DNA of 37,599 nt from an uncultured Pelagibacteraceae bacterium. GTDB taxonomy: Bacteria > Pseudomonadota > Alphaproteobacteria > Pelagibacterales > Pelagibacteraceae. Numbering within the stretch: position 1 is the stretch's first letter; every line of letters begins with the position of its first letter. The notes under the pieces were generated by a model. That model ran no database searches and was not told the origin of the DNA. It saw only the letters and a program-made list of their open reading frames with translations. The stretch spans positions 1 through 37,599 of the forward strand of contig CACHPJ010000009.1 of the NCBI GenBank assembly GCA_902581775.1, given 5' to 3'. The translations under genes were made by a program, and so were the position numbers. Below are positions 21,433 to 30,350 of the stretch, in pieces.

Positions 21433-23103
<1,671 letters not shown>

Positions 23104-23109
23104 TTTCAC

Positions 23110-23787
23110 TTACCCAAATGAATTTAAAAAAGGCTGTAACTTCGCAGCCTTTTTTTTTGCAGAAAGCAAACACGCTGTTGAATTTAAAATCAGTCCATCC
23201 TTTAAAACTCTCAAATTATTATCGGCTAAAGTCTTTCCAGTTGAAGTTATATCAGTAATAACTTCAGAGGAACCTATGAAAGGATATGTTTCAGTTGCAC
23301 CCAGACTAGGTATAATTTTATATTGAGTAACTCCTTTTGAAATTAAAAAATCATTTGTTAAATTTGGATATTTGGTTGCGACTCTTAACCTTCTATTTTT
23401 TTTAGATCTTAAATCAAATGAAACTTCTTCAAGGTCTGCAATTGTCTGAACATCTATCCAATCATCAGGAACCGCTACAACTAAATTAGCGTTACCAAAA
23501 TCAAGTTTACGTTTAATATTAATCTTATCATGTAAGTTTTTACCAGACTCGTTGAGAAGGTCTAATCCTGAAATACCTATATCTAAAGTGCCATCTCCTA
23601 ATCGCTGAATAATTTCTTTAGCATGAAGAAAAATAATTTTAATGTTAGATTTATTTTCAATAGTCCCAAAGTAATTTCTTTCTTTTTCACTTTGCAGAAT
23701 TTTTAGACCGGTGTTATTAAAAAAAGAAATTGATTTGTCTTTCAATCGGCCTTTGCTAGGCAAGCCTATAGTAATTAAATTTTTCAT
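23110..23787 (-). CDS. hisG: ATP phosphoribosyltransferase, catalytic subunit (short form)
   Basis: First committed step of histidine synthesis: ATP plus PRPP to phosphoribosyl-ATP. 225 aa, the short form that lacks the C-terminal regulatory domain and needs HisZ, whose gene is directly upstream and overlaps by 4 bases (ATGA). Conserved GLPSKGRLKD at the N-terminus, LGDGTLDIGISGLDLL, and the PRPP-binding region ITDITSTGKTLADNNL. The last codons lie in the groEL terminator hairpin. Confidence 0.96.
   Translation of the reverse strand: MKNLITIGLPSKGRLKDKSISFFNNTGLKILQSEKERNYFGTIENKSNIKIIFLHAKEIIQRLGDGTLDIGISGLDLLNESGKNLHDKINIKRKLDFGNANLVVAVPDDWIDVQTIADLEEVSFDLRSKKNRRLRVATKYPNLTNDFLISKGVTQYKIIPSLGATETYPFIGSSEVITDITSTGKTLADNNLRVLKDGLILNSTACLLSAKKKAAKLQPFLNSFG
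23126..23158 (+). terminator. Rho-independent terminator of groESL
   Basis: An 11-bp stem, AAAAAAGGCTG (23126-23136) with CAGCCTTTTTT (23145-23155), an 8-base loop, and a run of nine T at 23150-23158 on the plus strand. It begins 22 bases after the groEL stop and lies inside the 3' coding part of hisG on the other strand, where the T tract is shorter (six). Confidence 0.85.
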
Positions 23788-24821
23788 ATATTTTTTAAGT
23801 TGATTGCCGCACCAACAGCTGGGGTATTTTTTTTAGCTCCTAGACTTTTTAATAAATTATCATAACGTCCACCTCTTGCAATTTCTTTTTCGCCTGAAAA
23901 TACTTCAAATACTATTCCAGTATAGTATTCTACATCTCTACCGAAGTTAGTAATAAAATTCACATCTTCTTTAAGTTTCTTTAAGTTTTGAATTGATTTT
24001 AAATCCTTAAAAATATTTTTTTTAAGTTTATTCTTTTTTGCAAAAACCAATAATTTTTCATCGAGCTTTAAAAGTTTACAATTAATTTTTAAAAAAGACT
24101 TAATAATTTTAACAATTTGTTTACCATCACTAAAAGATCTTGGGTCTTTTAATTTTTTATCAAACCTTTTTAAAATTTCTGATATTGATCTTCCAGCAAC
24201 TACTTTATCTTGATCCATTTTTTGCATTTCAAAGAACCTTTTTTTGTCAGCATCAAAAGTGATAGCATCAATATCAGTATTTTTTTCTAATCGTTTTAAA
24301 AGTTCTTTAAAATAAATTGGTCTCCAAAAGTGTCTGATCAATCTTAACTTCCACCTTTCAGGCATATCGAGTGCATTGATTAAACTTTTGAATAAACTGA
24401 TATCTCCAACTTTGACTTGGATCCTTTTACTTTTAATTTTTTTGGCTGAACTTAAAATTGTGCTGATAACCTTAAAATCATCTTCAATTTGATTTTTAGA
24501 ACCTAATATCTCAATACCTAATTGATCGTTTATAAAGTTAGAGCCTTTATTGCCAAGTCTTCTATAAGCTTGTCCTGAATAATAAATTTTTGAAGAAGTC
24601 TTTTTTTGCAAGAAATTTATACACGAAGCTACCGTTAAATCTGGTCTTAAACACATAGTTTTTCCATTCTCACTCTCAAAAGTGAGCATAGAGCTTCTGA
24701 ATTTTTCACCTGATCTTTCAATAATATATTCCGAGTCAAGAAGTACGTCTGGTTCTGACAATACAAAACCATTGTCTTTAAAATTTTTAATTATAGTTTT
24801 AGATAATTTTTTTGATTTCAT
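23784..24821 (-). CDS. hisZ: ATP phosphoribosyltransferase regulatory subunit
   Basis: HisRS-like protein that forms a hetero-octamer with short HisG and gives it feedback control by histidine. 345 aa. Class II synthetase fold recognisable from CLRPDLTVA (motif 2 region), NFGRDVEYYTGIVFEVFSG and IARGGRYDNLL, but it lacks the C-terminal anticodon-binding domain of true HisRS. Overlaps the end of hisS by 23 bases and the start of hisG by 4. Sequence relation to adjacent hisS is as expected for this paralogue. Confidence 0.93.
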   Translation of the reverse strand: MKSKKLSKTIIKNFKDNGFVLSEPDVLLDSEYIIERSGEKFRSSMLTFESENGKTMCLRPDLTVASCINFLQKKTSSKIYYSGQAYRRLGNKGSNFINDQLGIEILGSKNQIEDDFKVISTILSSAKKIKSKRIQVKVGDISLFKSLINALDMPERWKLRLIRHFWRPIYFKELLKRLEKNTDIDAITFDADKKRFFEMQKMDQDKVVAGRSISEILKRFDKKLKDPRSFSDGKQIVKIIKSFLKINCKLLKLDEKLLVFAKKNKLKKNIFKDLKSIQNLKKLKEDVNFITNFGRDVEYYTGIVFEVFSGEKEIARGGRYDNLLKSLGAKKNTPAVGAAINLKNI

Positions 24822-26133
24822 TGACTAATTCTTTAATTTCAATTGCTTTTTCTTTGCCAGATCTAAGTTCTCTTAGAGTAGGTTTACCTGATTTGATTTC
24901 ATTTTCACCATATAGAATAACTGCAGGTGATTTAATCTTATTTGCATATTCCATTTGTTTTTTTAGCTTGTTTTCTCCAGGATATATTTCGGTGCTTATG
25001 CCTGCTTTTCTTAAGATTGATTGTAAACCAATGTATTCTTTCATTGATTTTTTATCAAAAACACAAATTACAATTGGTTTTGACTGTTTAAGCTTAAATT
25101 CTTTTTTTTGCATCAAAGCATAAACCAATCTATCTAATCCAATTGAAATGCCAGTTGCAGGCGCATCGTAATTACCAAAATTATTTATTAAATTATCATA
25201 TCTTCCTCCTCCTCCAATAGATCCAAACTGGACTGCTTGACCTTTGTTATTTTTTACCTCGAAATTTAAATTAACTTCAAATATCACGCCAGTATAATAT
25301 TCCAGACCTCTTATTACCGACGGATCAAATTCAAAATTATCGAAATTATAGTCTTTGAATATTTTTAATATTTCTAATAAGTCTTGTGTTTCAGGTGACT
25401 TTTTATTTAATTCTCTTTCTAAAACTTCTATATTTTGTGAAGTTAAATTTGCCCCCTTGGTAAAGTCGCCTGATTTATCTTTTCGTCCCTCTCCTAATAA
25501 TTCTTTAACACTGCTCCAGCCTAATCGGTCAATTTTATCTAAAGCTCTTAGTGCAGTAAGTTTTTGTTGATTATCTTTTAAATTTAATTTTTTGAATAAT
25601 TCTTCTGTTATTTTTCTTGAAGAAATCTTTATAATATATTCTGATTTGCTTAAGCCGCATTTCTCAAGAATTTCCGAAATCATTACGCATAGCTCAGCAT
25701 CTGCTTGCAGGCTTTTCGTTCCAACATAATCAGCATCAAATTGTAAAAATTCTCTAAATCTTCCTGGCCCCGGTTTCTCATTCCTCCATACTGTTCCAAG
25801 TTGATATCTTTTAAACGGTTTAGGGATTTCTAAATAATTCTTTGCAACATACCTGGCTAATGGTGCAGTTAAATCATATCTTAAAGACAGCCATTTATTT
25901 TCATCTTTAAATGAGAAAACACCCTCATCAGGTCTCTCTTTATCTGGCAGAAATTTACCAATACTATCTGAATACTCAAAACTTGGGGTTTCAAGATACT
26001 GAAAACCATACTTGATCATAACTTCTTTAATCTTAGAAATTATAAAATCTCGTATAAGTAGTTCTTTTTCTTTTCTATCAACAAACCCCAATGGAAGTTC
26101 TTTGGAAGGTTTGTTATTTTTTTCTTTATTCAT
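24799..26133 (-). CDS. hisS: Histidyl-tRNA synthetase (alphaproteobacterial type)
   Basis: Class II synthetase for tRNA-His. 444 aa from the ATG at 26133 (MNKEKNNK); the longer open frame extends back through the tRNA-His gene and is an artefact. Motif 2 reads RNEKPGPGRFREFLQFDAD, the form of alphaproteobacterial enzymes, not the RHERPQxGRYRQF of standard bacterial HisRS. His-specific GLEYYTGVIFEV and motif 3 GISIGLDRLVYAL are present, followed by the anticodon-binding domain. The start lies just 4 bases after the tRNA-His CCA end, so no Shine-Dalgarno fits in between. Downstream hisZ overlaps by 23 bases. Confidence 0.96.
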   Translation of the reverse strand: MNKEKNNKPSKELPLGFVDRKEKELLIRDFIISKIKEVMIKYGFQYLETPSFEYSDSIGKFLPDKERPDEGVFSFKDENKWLSLRYDLTAPLARYVAKNYLEIPKPFKRYQLGTVWRNEKPGPGRFREFLQFDADYVGTKSLQADAELCVMISEILEKCGLSKSEYIIKISSRKITEELFKKLNLKDNQQKLTALRALDKIDRLGWSSVKELLGEGRKDKSGDFTKGANLTSQNIEVLERELNKKSPETQDLLEILKIFKDYNFDNFEFDPSVIRGLEYYTGVIFEVNLNFEVKNNKGQAVQFGSIGGGGRYDNLINNFGNYDAPATGISIGLDRLVYALMQKKEFKLKQSKPIVICVFDKKSMKEYIGLQSILRKAGISTEIYPGENKLKKQMEYANKIKSPAVILYGENEIKSGKPTLRELRSGKEKAIEIKELVNEIKKII

Positions 26134-26137
26134 TTTT

Positions 26138-26213
26138 TGGTACAGCAGGGTGGATTCGAACCACCGACCCCTAGTTCCACAAACTAGTGCTCTAACCAAC
26201 TGAGCTACTGCTG
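26138..26213 (-). tRNA. tRNA-His (GTG anticodon), lacking G-1
   Basis: 76-base cloverleaf on the minus strand with encoded CCA. Acceptor 5' GCAGCAG pairs with CTGCTGT 3', giving a G1-U72 wobble; D arm GCTC...GAGC; anticodon stem CTAGT/ACTAG with loop TTGTGGA (anticodon GTG); T arm GGTGG/CCACC with TTCGAAT. The discriminator is A73 and the base before G1 is C, so the almost universal G-1:C73 pair is absent. This is the form reported for a large alphaproteobacterial group. It is the first gene of the hisS-hisZ-hisG unit. Confidence 0.97.
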
Positions 26214-26261
26214 CGTCCTTTCTATATTTATCTTAATTTTTGTTAAATTTGTATATTTTTG

Positions 26262-26267
26262 ATTATA
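26262..26267 (-). promoter_or_regulatory. Candidate -10 box upstream of tRNA-His
   Basis: A perfect TATAAT on the minus strand 49 bases before the mature tRNA 5' end. No convincing -35 hexamer is found at 16-18 bases upstream, so the promoter is tentative. If used it would drive tRNA-His and the hisS-hisZ-hisG genes with a leader of about 40 bases. Confidence 0.35.
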
Positions 26268-26377
26268 AGCTAAGCAATAGCCTAGCGTGCATTCTGTGAG
26301 AATGTGAATATGTTCTGAAATTTTGCGTTTTTATATTCATTGAGTGTCTTTTAACAACTTTTTGAATTTTTGCAAGC

Positions 26378-26418
26378 TTAACGGGGCAAAAAACTAATAA
26401 TAGTTAATACCCCGTTAA
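26378..26418 (-). repeat. Inverted repeat after the cold-shock gene, possible 3' end structure
   Basis: TTAACGGGG (26378-26386) and CCCCGTTAA (26410-26418) form a perfect 9-bp stem. Inside the 23-base loop a second stem AACTA/TAGTT can form. It lies 24 bases after the cold-shock gene's stop on the minus strand. There is no T tract following on either strand, so it is not a standard intrinsic terminator; it could be a 3' processing or protective hairpin or an operator. Confidence 0.45.
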
Positions 26419-26441
26419 AGAGACTTTAGGAAAATTAAGAA

Positions 26442-26654
26442 TTAAGATGTTTTCTGCAATTTAACTGCGGCAGGACCTTTTTCCGTGCTTTCCACTTCAA
26501 ATGTTAGCTCATCACCTTCGTTTAAATATTTTAAACCAGCTTCTCTAACAGCTGAAGAGTGAACGAACACGTCTTTTTCTTTGTCTTCACGCTCAATGAA
26601 ACCATAACCTTTAGTACCATTGAACCACTTTACTTTACCTTTTAGTGTACTCAT
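26442..26654 (-). CDS. Cold-shock domain protein
   Basis: 70-aa CspA-family nucleic-acid chaperone that binds single-stranded RNA and DNA. Both RNA-binding motifs are intact: [10 protein letters not shown] (RNP1 KGYGFI) and DVFVHSSAV (RNP2 VFVH), preceded by GKVKWFNGT. Shine-Dalgarno TAAGGA at 26670-26665, about 11 bases before the ATG. Lies 141 bases after accA on the same strand; the intervening DNA holds several palindromes and repeats that may regulate it, and a 17-base palindrome lies in the leader. Confidence 0.95.
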
Positions 26655-26685
26655 TATTTACTTATCCTTATTGTTGTTAACTTTA

Positions 26686-26702
26686 GTTAGTTTTAAACTA
26701 AC
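26686..26702 (-). repeat. Palindrome in the cold-shock gene leader
   Basis: GTTAGTTTTAAACTAAC is a perfect 8+1+8 palindrome 32 bases before the start codon. In RNA it would form a short stem with an AU-rich loop; in DNA it could be an operator. No known family recognised. Confidence 0.4.
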
Positions 26703-26728
26703 CATGCCTCTTTACTAAAATAAAGTAG

Positions 26729-26781
26729 ATAATGTCAAGAATTGATTACAGTTTTTCTTATATTTATAAGAATAATGTCAA
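26729..26781 (-). promoter_or_regulatory. Direct repeats and palindrome upstream of the cold-shock gene
   Basis: TTGACATTAT occurs twice on the minus strand (26738-26729 and 26781-26772), 43 bases apart, or about four helical turns. Between them is the 18-base perfect palindrome TTCTTATATTTATAAGAA (26755-26772). TTGACA equals the -35 consensus, but neither copy has a good -10 at the right distance, so these may be protein-binding sites instead. The palindrome may alternatively serve accA, which ends just upstream. Confidence 0.4.
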
Positions 26782-26795
26782 TTATGCCACTAGAT

Positions 26796-27902
26796 CTATT
26801 TAAATACAGTGAAAATGTAGGCAAATATTAATACCGCAAGTCCGAGGTATACATATTTGTATTTAAAAATATTTCTTTTAATTTTTTGATAAAAAGGCTC
26901 TTGGAAACCTAAACCTTTATCACTTAAGTTAGAGGACTTTGTAAAACCCTTTTCTCTGCCAATTTTTAAAAATTTAGATTTTCTATGCTCGTAAATTTGT
27001 TCTTTAGATAAATTTTCAAAATATTTTAAGTTTTTTATTAGACAATTTTTTACTTCATCTGCAATTATTTCCGGGTCTCTATGAGCTCCGCCAACAGGCT
27101 CGTTTATTATCTCATCAATGACTCCTAAACTAAATAAATCTTTTGCTGTAAGTTTCATTGCCTCCGCCGCTTCCAATGATTTCGAAGGGTCTCTCCAAAG
27201 GATTGAAGCACATCCCTCCGGTGAAATAACTGAGTAAATAGAATTTTCAAGCATGATTACTTTATTAGAAGAAGCTAAAGCTATTGCTCCGCCTGAACCA
27301 CCTTCACCAATAATTATTGAAATATTTGGCACACCAAGTGACATTGAACACTCAATAGAATTTGCTATAGCTGATGCTTGACCTCTTTGTTCTGCACCAA
27401 TTCCTGGGTAAGCACCTGGAGTATCTATAAATGTTACAACAGGTATATTAAATCTATTAGCTAAGTTCATTAATCTAACACACTTCCTATAACCTTCAGG
27501 TCTCATCATCCCAAAATTTCTTTCAATTCTACTATTTAAATCTTCTCCTTTTTCTTGACCAATAACTAAAACAGATTTTTCATTGATAAGACCAAAACCA
27601 GCTGTCACAGATTTATCATCACCAAAATATCTGTCTCCTGATAGAGATGTAAAATTAGAAAATATTTTTTCGATATAAAATTTAGCACGTGGTCTATCCT
27701 CATGTCTCGCCACAAGAGTTTTTTGCCAGCTATTTAAATTAGCGTAAGTTTGTTTTAACTTTTCGTTTATTTCCATTTCGGTAGTTTTAATTTTTTGCGT
27801 ATCAACTTCTGATATACCTTCTGTTCCAAAAGGACTTTTTAGATTTTCTACCTCTGACTCAAGTGATTTAATCTCTTTTTCAAATTCTAGATAATTTTTC
27901 AT
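26796..27902 (-). CDS. accA: Acetyl-CoA carboxylase carboxyltransferase alpha subunit with C-terminal membrane helix
   Basis: Alpha half of the carboxyltransferase that makes malonyl-CoA for fatty acid synthesis. 368 aa against about 320 in typical AccA. The core runs to about residue 318 and includes FIDTPGAYPGIGAEQRGQ, IIIGEGGSGGAIALA and MLENSIYSVISPEGCASILW. An added tail of about 50 residues ends in a hydrophobic segment (about 350-366) flanked by lysines, which looks like a tail anchor. The ATG is very close to a candidate promoter (27914-27942), with the purine-rich AGGAGA too far upstream to act. accB, accC and accD are not in the window. Confidence 0.93.
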   Translation of the reverse strand: MKNYLEFEKEIKSLESEVENLKSPFGTEGISEVDTQKIKTTEMEINEKLKQTYANLNSWQKTLVARHEDRPRAKFYIEKIFSNFTSLSGDRYFGDDKSVTAGFGLINEKSVLVIGQEKGEDLNSRIERNFGMMRPEGYRKCVRLMNLANRFNIPVVTFIDTPGAYPGIGAEQRGQASAIANSIECSMSLGVPNISIIIGEGGSGGAIALASSNKVIMLENSIYSVISPEGCASILWRDPSKSLEAAEAMKLTAKDLFSLGVIDEIINEPVGGAHRDPEIIADEVKNCLIKNLKYFENLSKEQIYEHRKSKFLKIGREKGFTKSSNLSDKGLGFQEPFYQKIKRNIFKYKYVYLGLAVLIFAYIFTVFK

Positions 27903-27913
27903 AAACGTTATTT

Positions 27914-27942
27914 ATTATAATTCTCCTTTTAATAGAGTTCAA
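27914..27942 (-). promoter_or_regulatory. Candidate promoter of accA
   Basis: On the minus strand TTGAAC (27942-27937), a 17-base spacer, and TATAAT (27919-27914). Transcription would begin about 5-7 bases after the -10, close to 27907, leaving almost no leader before the accA ATG at 27902. The AGGAGA at about 27928-27923 would then be upstream of the transcript start. Confidence 0.45.
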
Positions 27943-27973
27943 TTAAGACAATATATTGACACTTTGGTGCTTA

Positions 27974-28001
27974 TTGCAATTAATATTTAACTTTATATAA
28001 T
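27974..28001 (+). promoter_or_regulatory. Promoter of the glcB riboswitch transcript
   Basis: TTGCAA (27974-27979), 16-base spacer, TATAAT (27996-28001). Transcription would begin near 28008, about 15 bases before the first riboswitch aptamer. A TTGACA at 27956-27961 could be the -35 of an alternative start but has only ATTAAT at the matching distance. Confidence 0.55.
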
Positions 28002-28022
28002 GGTAGTAAGAAATAATTTAAA

Positions 28023-28159
28023 TCGGGAGAGACTATTTAGATATAGCGCCGAAGGAGCAACCACCCCGGAAACTCTCAGGCAAAAGGACCGAGAAAACAA
28101 GATTCTGGAAAGAGATAAAATCTCACCGAAGGAGTAAATCTCTCAGGTACCAAAACAGA
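28023..28159 (+). promoter_or_regulatory. Tandem glycine riboswitch (two aptamers)
   Basis: Two gcvT-type aptamers. First: TCGG (28023-28026) closes with CCGA (28089-28092) around GCGCCGAAGGAGCAA and CTCTCAGGCAAAAGGACC. Second: TCTG (28104-28107) closes with CAGA (28156-28159) around CACCGAAGGAGTAA and TCTCTCAGGTACCAAAAC. The CCGAAGGAG and CTCAGG cores are diagnostic. Only 22 bases separate aptamer 2 from the glcB start and no terminator hairpin is seen there, so control of translation or RNA stability is more likely than attenuation. A glycine-activated riboswitch before malate synthase has been reported in SAR11. Confidence 0.96.
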
Positions 28160-28181
28160 TGGGGTTAATGAATTGGTGCTT

Positions 28182-30350
28182 ATGAATAAAATTAATAAAA
28201 ACGGACTAAAGATTAATTCTAAATTATTTGAATTTATCAATAAAGAGATCATTCCTGGTACTAAGGTTAATGCAGAGGATTTTTGGGAAGGATTTGAAAA
28301 AACCGTACATGAGCTAGCTCCAATAAATAAATCCTTAATAGAAAAAAGAGAAATAATTCAAAAAAAAATTGATGAGTGGCATTTAGATAATATAGGAAAA
28401 GATTTTGATAAAAAGAAATATACGGATTTTTTAAAAAAAATTTCTTATATCTCAGATGAAAAAGATGACTTTGAAATTGAAACTTTAAATGTAGATCAAG
28501 AAATTTCGTCCATTGCAGGACCTCAACTTGTTGTTCCTGTAGATAATGCCAGATATGCTTTGAACGCTGCTAATGCAAGATGGGGAAGTTTATATGATGC
28601 ACTATACGGAACAGATGTTATTCCAGGAAATAAAGGCAGTGGTTATGATACCGAAAGAGGAAGTAAAGTTATTAATTATGTTAGAGAATTTTTAGATGAA
28701 GTTGTGCCTTTATATAATGGAAGCTGGAAAGAAATCTCAGAGATCAAAATTAAAAATAATGATGTTGTTTTTCTAATAGATGATAAAGAAAACTTCCTTA
28801 AAAATAAAAATCAATTTATAGGTTTTAATGGAGAAAAAGATAAACCTAAATCAATTTTAATAAAAAATAATAATCTTCACATAGATGTGAAGATTGATCC
28901 AGGTCATCTAATAGGAAAATCTGATAAAGCTTCGATTTCAGATGTAGTAATAGAATCTGCTTTATCAACAATTATTGATAATGAGGACTCTGTAGCTGCA
29001 GTTGATGCAGAAGATAAAATAAAATGTTATCGAAATTGGTTGGGGTTAATGAAAGGTGACTTGATAGCTAAGATGGAAAAAGATGGAAAGAAATTTGTTA
29101 GAAAACTCAATCCAAATAGAGATTATATTTCAACTGACGGTAAAAAAATTTCATTGCATGGTAGAGCTTTGCTTTTAAATAGAAATGTTGGTCACTTAAT
29201 GACCAACCCCTCAATATTATTAAATGATGGATCTGAAATACCAGAAGGAATAATGGACGCATTTATAGCGACTTTGTGTGCTTTACATGACTTTGAAAAT
29301 AAAAATAATTCTAGAGTTGGTTCGGTTTACATTGTCAAACCTAAAATGCATGGGCCTGAGGAAGTTGCTTTTACAAATACTCTCTTTGGAAAAGTTGAAG
29401 AAGTATTGGGCATCAAAAAATATTCTATCAAAGTAGGAATAATGGATGAAGAAAGAAGAACTACTGTAAATTTAAAAGAATGCATTAGACAAGTAAAAAA
29501 TAGAATTGTTTTTATTAACACAGGTTTCTTAGATAGAACTGGAGATGAAATGCATACATCATTTGAAGCGGGACCGATGATTTTTAAAGGAGACATGAAA
29601 AAATCTACATGGCTTAACACTTATGAAAACTGGAATGTAGACATTGGTTTAAATTGCGGTTTTTCTGGTAAGGCACAGATAGGTAAAGGAATGTGGGCAA
29701 TGCCAGATCAAATGGCAAATATGATGGAGCAAAAAATTGGACATCCTAAATCTGGAGCGAATTGTGCTTGGGTACCTTCACCTACAGCAGCCACATTACA
29801 TGCTATGCACTACCACAAAGTAAATGTTTTTGAAGAGCAAAAAAAAATTAAATCGAGAACTAGGGCAAAACTAGAAAATATTTTAGAAATACCTAAAGCT
29901 GACAGACCTAACTGGTCCAAAGAAGATATAAACCTAGAATTAGAGAATAATGCCCAAGGAATTTTAGGTTATGTAGTTAGATGGATAGATCAAGGTGTAG
30001 GTTGTTCTAAGGTACCTGATATAAATAATATTGGTTTAATGGAGGATAGAGCTACACTAAGAATATCGTCTCAGCACATGGCTAATTGGATTCATCATGG
30101 AATATGTACAAAAGAACAAGTCATGTCTGTTATGAAAAAAATGGCAAAAATAGTTGATAAACAAAATGAAAATGATCCAGCTTATGGTCGAAGTGGAAGA
30201 ACTGGATATAAAAAAATGTCGGATGATTTTGAAAATTCTATAGCTTTTGCAGCTGCGTGCGATTTAGTTTTTAAAGGAAGAGTTCAACCATCAGGTTATA
30301 CTGAACCACTTTTACACGAAAAAAGGTTAGAAAAAAAAACTAGTCATTAG
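28182..30350 (+). CDS. glcB: Malate synthase G
   Basis: Condenses glyoxylate with acetyl-CoA to malate (glyoxylate use). 722 aa, single-chain G isoform. Active-site blocks: [15 protein letters not shown] with the catalytic Arg, [19 protein letters not shown] with acidic Mg ligands, [19 protein letters not shown], and [19 protein letters not shown] with the catalytic Asp. I chose ATG 28182; in-frame TTG 28173 and GTG 28176 are possible but less likely. No Shine-Dalgarno is seen at normal spacing; a GGGG at 28161-28164 is 17 bases away. Controlled by the glycine riboswitch. Its stop overlaps convergent recR by 11 bases. Confidence 0.97.

Follow-up and report, generated by a model that had tools for sequence, protein, structure and literature searches.

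On balance, a short histidine-rich leader ORF, a hairpin (P2), the tRNA-His gene, hisS, hisZ and hisG, which follow one another in this order on the minus strand of the 37,599-nt stretch of Pelagibacteraceae DNA analysed here (the window), appear to form a single unit controlled by the His leader. The tRNA, histidyl-tRNA synthetase (HisRS) and the histidine-synthesis proteins are probably produced from one transcript according to histidine supply, and the His-rich leader with its hairpin, overlooked in the first-pass annotation of this DNA, is the likeliest candidate regulator of the unit. A more specific version of this reading, to which somewhat less than an even chance is given, holds that the unit is a self-sufficient operon supplying charged tRNA-His, in which a tRNA carried on the leader-gated RNA would double as the cleavage mark for a near-leaderless hisS. 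Gene order, a gap of 3-6 nt between tRNA and hisS, the leader ORF and the hairpin recur in 83 loci of the window's own family, while 27 loci of the sister family are without the junction.

The tRNA-His/hisS junction in the window

The tRNA-His (GTG) gene occupies 26138..26214 (minus) and was recognised by ARAGORN as well as by the Rfam tRNA model (71.9 bits at 26141-26214). Its CCA is encoded, and it carries G1:U72, A73 and a C at position -1. The 4-nt spacer AAAA (26134..26137, minus) separates it from hisS (24799..26133, minus), which encodes a HisRS of 444 aa (TIGR00442, 370 bits against a cut-off of 287) and has its ATG at 26133-26131. Direct reading of the CCA end at 26138, the spacer and the ATG at 26133 confirms the first-pass observation that tRNA-His ends 4 bases before the hisS start codon; the range given there, 26131-26213, contains the junction and misses the start of the tRNA, which at 26214 lies one base outside.

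Since the first in-frame ATG after the hisS start is at codon 39, no alternative ATG start is available nearby. Upstream, the reading frame is open into the tRNA (a 466-aa ORF from a TTG), and a hisS start inside the tRNA was considered and rejected, as tRNA-His sequences differ between types and a shared N-terminal extension of hisS is therefore unlikely. With only 4 nt between CCA and ATG, there is no room for a hisS promoter or for a leader of its own; thus, the hisS RNA either runs through tRNA-His or starts within it. The latter would require a conserved promoter inside tRNA-His, which is unlikely in view of the differences between the tRNA types.

The spacer likewise has no room for a Shine-Dalgarno (SD) site, which is weak evidence for a leaderless mRNA. 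The earlier remark that no ribosome-binding site fits before hisS holds for these 4 nt, but the feature is not special to hisS: in the loci analysed from three own-family genomes, SD cores were found upstream of 5/61, 5/45 and 2/45 genes (0.07, 0.07 and 0.05 in shuffled sequences), as compared with 14/39 in the control genome G345 (0.16 in shuffled sequences). As SD cores in these own-family loci stay near the shuffled rate, the absence of an SD site at hisS tells little when taken alone.

Conservation of the junction across relatives

The HisRS of the window was searched against 297 genomes of the order and matches were obtained in 277; among the matches listed, the hisS start region was examined in 110 genomes (83 of the own family and 27 of the sister family). 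The 3' end of tRNA-His lies 3-6 nt before the hisS ATG in all 83 own-family loci examined, with a gap of 4 nt in 65, 5 nt in 14, 3 nt in three and 6 nt in one, and the spacer reads AAAA in 49. An acceptor stem of seven pairs, G1:U72 and A73 are common to all 83 tRNA-His genes, while the base at -1 varies (T in 43, A in 30, C in six and G in four). The tRNA-His sequences of the family fall into several very different types, yet the spacing is kept. Four of the 83 genes were undetected by ARAGORN (L104, L107, L109 and L110), and the one from genome G003 (L110) scored 50.6 bits with the Rfam model. Very divergent tRNA-His genes are present in L098-L105 and L107-L110, upstream of a HisRS about 46% identical to that of the window. 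In a further locus (L057, genome G127), hisS is broken by stops in a draft genome, perhaps through an assembly error, and the tRNA junction is intact.

None of the 27 sister-family loci examined has a tRNA within 700 nt upstream of hisS. In two sister-family records (L376 and L419), tRNA-Phe and tRNA-His are present at 433-590, well upstream of hisS, and in L376 an opposite-strand ORF (575-1774) lies between the tRNA pair and hisS; in the sister-family genome G002, the tRNA-Phe/tRNA-His pair is located about 1.4 kb upstream of hisS. Conservation of the 4-base spacing across SAR11, which the first-pass annotation had proposed to check, is therefore a property of the own family (83/83 at 3-6 nt) that does not extend to the sister family; relatives with a normal leader, which it had named as evidence against its reading, occur in the sister family (27/27) and not in the own family.

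At the level of the class, 141 of 142 genomes gave a match, and none of the 28 loci examined from other families has a tRNA upstream of hisS. Among 80 named loci, a set which overlaps with these 28 and is not to be added to them, a tRNA lies within 500 nt upstream of hisS in 32. In 31 of the 32 it is always tRNA-His, and these loci are titled Pelagibacteraceae, Pelagibacterales or Fonsibacter (one just Alpha proteobacterium). The remaining locus (L408) belongs to a non-SAR11 alphaproteobacterium and has tRNA-His 195 nt upstream of hisS.

The histidine-rich leader and its hairpins

Between tRNA-His and an upstream cold-shock protein gene (26442..26654, minus) lies the His leader ORF MNIKTQNFRTYSHSHRMHARLLLSL (26263..26340, minus), the stop of which stands 48 nt before the tRNA. 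The region 26340-26460 folds with z = -3.3, and a hairpin lies in the 3' region of the cold-shock gene. When the best short ORF was sought in the 230 nt upstream of tRNA-His in the 83 own-family loci, a short His ORF was obtained in every case, with at least 3 His per 8 residues in 80 and 2 His in three; among 3320 first-order Markov sequences, 37 reached the threshold of 3. A cluster of cognate codons in a short ORF upstream of the operon, the arrangement known from hisL-type leaders, is thus found in 80/83 loci. In the own genus, the three leader His codons are retained in 27/27, 26/27 and 27/27 loci, and at two of them CAT and CAC replace one another. Across 15 leader codons of the own genus, variant bases number 14, 14 and 21 at codon positions 1, 2 and 3, so that the signature of coding is weak beyond the His core.

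With the threshold of 3 His per 8 residues, a His leader also precedes hisS in 27/27 sister-family loci (42/540 in the null set), where it occurs without the tRNA. The leader may therefore be older than the junction, and the comparison suggests that in the own family the tRNA-His gene later came between leader and hisS. The same threshold is reached by an ORF in seven of 46 named loci from other alphaproteobacteria (null, 36/980). Four of the seven (L396, L402, L420 and L421, three titled Phenylobacterium and one 'bacterium') show HHHxHHH-like runs upstream of hisS outside SAR11, and the other three may be due to chance.

Directly behind the last leader His codon lies the hairpin P2 (GCTAGGC-TATT-GCTTAGC; 26269..26286, minus). 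A P2-type hairpin directly behind the His cluster was detected in 83/83 own-family loci as compared with 156/1660 shuffles, after the search anchor was shifted for leaders with residues following the HA motif (with the earlier anchor, the stem was poor in 2/83). The arms are quite different in three loci, and six of the 83 leaders have a further His codon inside P2. A second hairpin, P1 (CATTCT-CAC-AGAATG; 26290..26304, minus), spans two His codons and is present in the own genus and in g6. For the analysis of pairs in this own-genus and g6 set, 35 loci were reduced to 18 distinct blocks and L027, in which P1 differs, was excluded. No pair of P2 changed on both sides, while in P1 both-side changes were seen in 2/6 pairs and the sixth pair is broken in 6/17 distinct rows; these counts are also shaped by coding constraint and relatedness.

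The 10 nt that follow P2 contain 3-7 T, which does not make a clear U-run, a terminator scan of 26100-26720 found none, and no competing antiterminator fold was identified, so intrinsic attenuation remains a putative step. An Rfam scan of 23000-28200 with E up to 1 returned no T-box, and no known RNA family besides the tRNA was found at the leader or hisS. Elsewhere in the window, a glycine riboswitch aptamer (28014-28159, plus; 68.5 bits) stands before a 725-aa ORF at 28173, and a weaker second copy in the same region reaches 30.8 bits, just below the cut-off.

The roughly 50 AT-rich nt between P2 and tRNA-His would leave room for a further promoter, acting independently of the leader. If such a promoter drove tRNA-His and hisS, the leader would be either a separate short attenuated RNA or a relic of an old hisS leader. 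This explanation is considered unlikely. TATAAA-like words can be seen by eye in this stretch in own-family sequences, and the single tRNA-His found in each of the window's own genome (76.7% complete), G009 and G002 may need steady transcription; however, a promoter scan of the window reported no site between P2 and tRNA-His, which is a weak test, and conservation of the His codons in 83 loci would hardly be expected of a relic.

The control of the whole unit by the His leader is the preferred reading. Under this reading, when charged tRNA-His is scarce, the ribosome would slow on the leader His codons, the slowed ribosome would prevent P2 from forming, and more RNA polymerase would continue into tRNA-His, hisS, hisZ and hisG. 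The attenuation step and the extent of the transcript are inferred, as are the processing site and leaderless initiation at hisS.

tRNA processing and the freed hisS mRNA

The close spacing and its retention in 83/83 loci make co-transcription with the tRNA, followed by near-leaderless translation of hisS after tRNA processing, the simplest reading of the junction. The tRNA-His would act as a punctuation mark, its excision by 5' and 3' processing freeing an hisS-hisZ-hisG mRNA with about 4 A before the AUG, which would be translated near-leaderless. A cut directly after the CCA would leave 4 nt before the hisS AUG, and the released mRNA is predicted to be unpaired over its first 20 nt.

As for the processing enzyme, RNase E/G was found in 54/58 genomes (above the cut-off in 50). 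In E. coli, RNase E is among the enzymes held responsible for cleavage a few nt downstream of the tRNA (PMC4681348, in the portion available), and by analogy a cut a few nt after the CCA is plausible here. RNase Z was also considered as the cutting enzyme and set aside: weak matches occur in 52/58 genomes with none above the family cut-off, although 5/14 control genomes miss that cut-off as well. The candidate protein of the own-family genomes G003 and G011 fits other MBL-fold models better than RNase Z, and that of the sister family has an RNase Z model as its best match, below the cut-off.

The first-pass annotation had also raised the possibility that tRNA folding or HisRS binding sets hisS expression, which would mean repression of hisS translation on the uncut tRNA-hisS RNA. 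Such autoregulation could draw on the position of the start codon 4 nt from the end of a tRNA that HisRS must bind, and the predicted fold of the tRNA-hisS RNA keeps the acceptor stem with the start region open. Nevertheless, no dedicated feature is seen at the locus, the uncut RNA would have to compete for HisRS with abundant mature tRNA-His, and a leader-peptide sensor seemingly already lies upstream, which makes this explanation very improbable.

Short tRNA-ATG gaps in SAR11 genomes

Short gaps between a tRNA and the following ATG are a wider habit of SAR11. When distances were measured to the ATG of ORFs with 80 codons or more, a gap of 7 nt or less was counted for 17/87 tRNAs in three own-family genomes as compared with 2/90 in three others, namely one sister-family genome and two other AT-rich alphaproteobacteria (Fisher p 1.6e-4). 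A stricter count gives 16/87, as in G009 the ATG behind a tRNA-Leu overlaps the CCA and the conserved start of tig (trigger factor) lies at 8 nt. The counts cover 31/35 tRNAs in G326, 32/34 in G345, 27/28 in G002 and 32/33 in G003, in which the tRNA-His unseen by ARAGORN was entered by hand. Both short gaps outside the own family (6 and 7 nt) come from G326, a non-SAR11 AT-rich genome, and the notion that such gaps are strictly specific to the own family was rejected on this ground.

The genes behind such short gaps include ones that best match trigger factor, TypA, NAD kinase, acyl-CoA ligases and a CCA nucleotidyltransferase, with some of the family matches below curated cut-offs or cut short. 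In one such case (L154, G003), 3 nt separate the end of tRNA-Gln from the ATG of a gene that matches CCA tRNA nucleotidyltransferase best, below the cut-off. The tRNA-Leu to tig junction was present in all 30 loci examined, out of 52 genomes with a match.

The frequency of short gaps in SAR11 indicates that compaction is part of the cause of the hisS junction. Streamlining might even be the whole cause, SAR11 trimming its spacers to the processing limit so that the adjacency is without regulatory meaning; this is possible, at a probability well short of even. In its favour, the 16-17 of 87 own-family tRNAs with an ATG within 7 nt include some placed before genes unrelated to the tRNA in question, hisS-hisZ and hisZ-hisG overlap, and the non-SAR11 AT-rich genome has two such gaps. 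Streamlining nevertheless does not account for the His-rich ORF that precedes the tRNA in 83 loci, and the gap from tRNA-Leu to tig ranges over 6-16 nt in 26 own-family loci, whereas that at hisS is held to 3-6 nt in 83.

Downstream genes and evolution of hisS

Behind hisS and overlapping it lies hisZ, encoding the regulatory subunit of ATP phosphoribosyltransferase (23784..24821, minus; NCBIfam matches below cut-offs), which in turn is overlapped by hisG, encoding the 225-aa ATP phosphoribosyltransferase (23110..23787, minus). The operon thus serves the synthesis and charging of the same amino acid, as in hisL-type systems. Both hisZ and hisG follow hisS in 20 further loci examined, with hisZ just a fragment in L234; an extra ORF of 264-281 aa is present between hisZ and hisG in L230, L235 and L236.

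In three genomes (G017, G028 and G036), hisS clusters with sequences of other genera and hisZ with those of its own genus (AU p 2.7e-4 and 1.5e-7), G028 hisZ being a long branch in the tree, and hisG of the corresponding loci (L226, L227 and L228) stays with its own genus by identity. As hisS groups elsewhere while hisZ stays, a different SAR11 lineage was probably the source of an in-place replacement of hisS in these genomes. The gap between tRNA-His and hisS is 4 nt in all three. Transfer of tRNA-His and HisRS together as a matched pair was considered and not adopted, since the 28 loci with tRNA type B differ in their HisRS, of which they carry three kinds.

Comparison with known systems

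In mitochondrial transcripts, tRNAs serve as punctuation. The junction described here is similar in that a tRNA abuts the start codon (at hisS, in 83/83 loci) and that processing would free a near-leaderless mRNA. It differs in belonging to a free-living bacterium, in leaving 3-6 nt at hisS, in encoding the CCA and in involving only some tRNA genes; furthermore, the 58 genomes searched hold no RNase Z above the family cut-off.

T-boxes sense tRNA. In the part of the source at hand, T-box control of hisS is described for Bacillus and others (PMC2965389), and the likeness to the present locus lies in control placed upstream of hisS; here, in contrast, there is no T-box match and the tRNA itself is encoded before hisS. 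The same source, as far as available, describes His leader peptides before hisS* and hisZ in bacilli, which were found by their terminators (Naville and Gautheret, 2010; PMC2965389). Those leaders share with the present one a short His-codon ORF upstream of hisS-family genes, whereas in the window the cognate tRNA lies between leader and hisS and there is no clear terminator.

A derived tRNA-His/HisRS identity, with A73 and no templated G-1, is described for the RRCH alphaproteobacteria, among them 7/8 SAR11 strains (Amrine, 2014; PMC3937112). The own-family tRNA-His genes agree with this in having A73 without a conserved G-1, while gene adjacency and a leader peptide are undescribed in the available part of that paper. 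In the main text of a survey of structured RNAs in Ca. P. ubique (PMC2704228), no word starts with hisS or histid. Among the titles and abstracts listed for Pelagibacter/SAR11 together with leaderless mRNAs, leader peptides, Shine-Dalgarno sites or HisRS, none dealt with this locus; an earlier mention of the adjacency is possible.

Implications

The window's own family comprises very common ocean bacteria, and few classical regulators are attributed to SAR11. If the proposed control is correct, a leader acting at once on a tRNA, on the synthetase that charges it and on the first step of biosynthesis would provide compact control of an essential resource, with a single RNA yielding tRNA-His, HisRS and the committing enzyme of histidine synthesis together with its regulator. 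Apart from its possible role in regulation, the junction offers a setting in which change of tRNA and synthetase can be studied under fixed spacing. The tRNA punctuation, if true, would provide a testable case of leaderless translation start in streamlined bacteria; SAR11, although free-living, would then resemble mitochondria in punctuating transcripts with tRNAs, and its tRNA-His would be controlled through its own charging.
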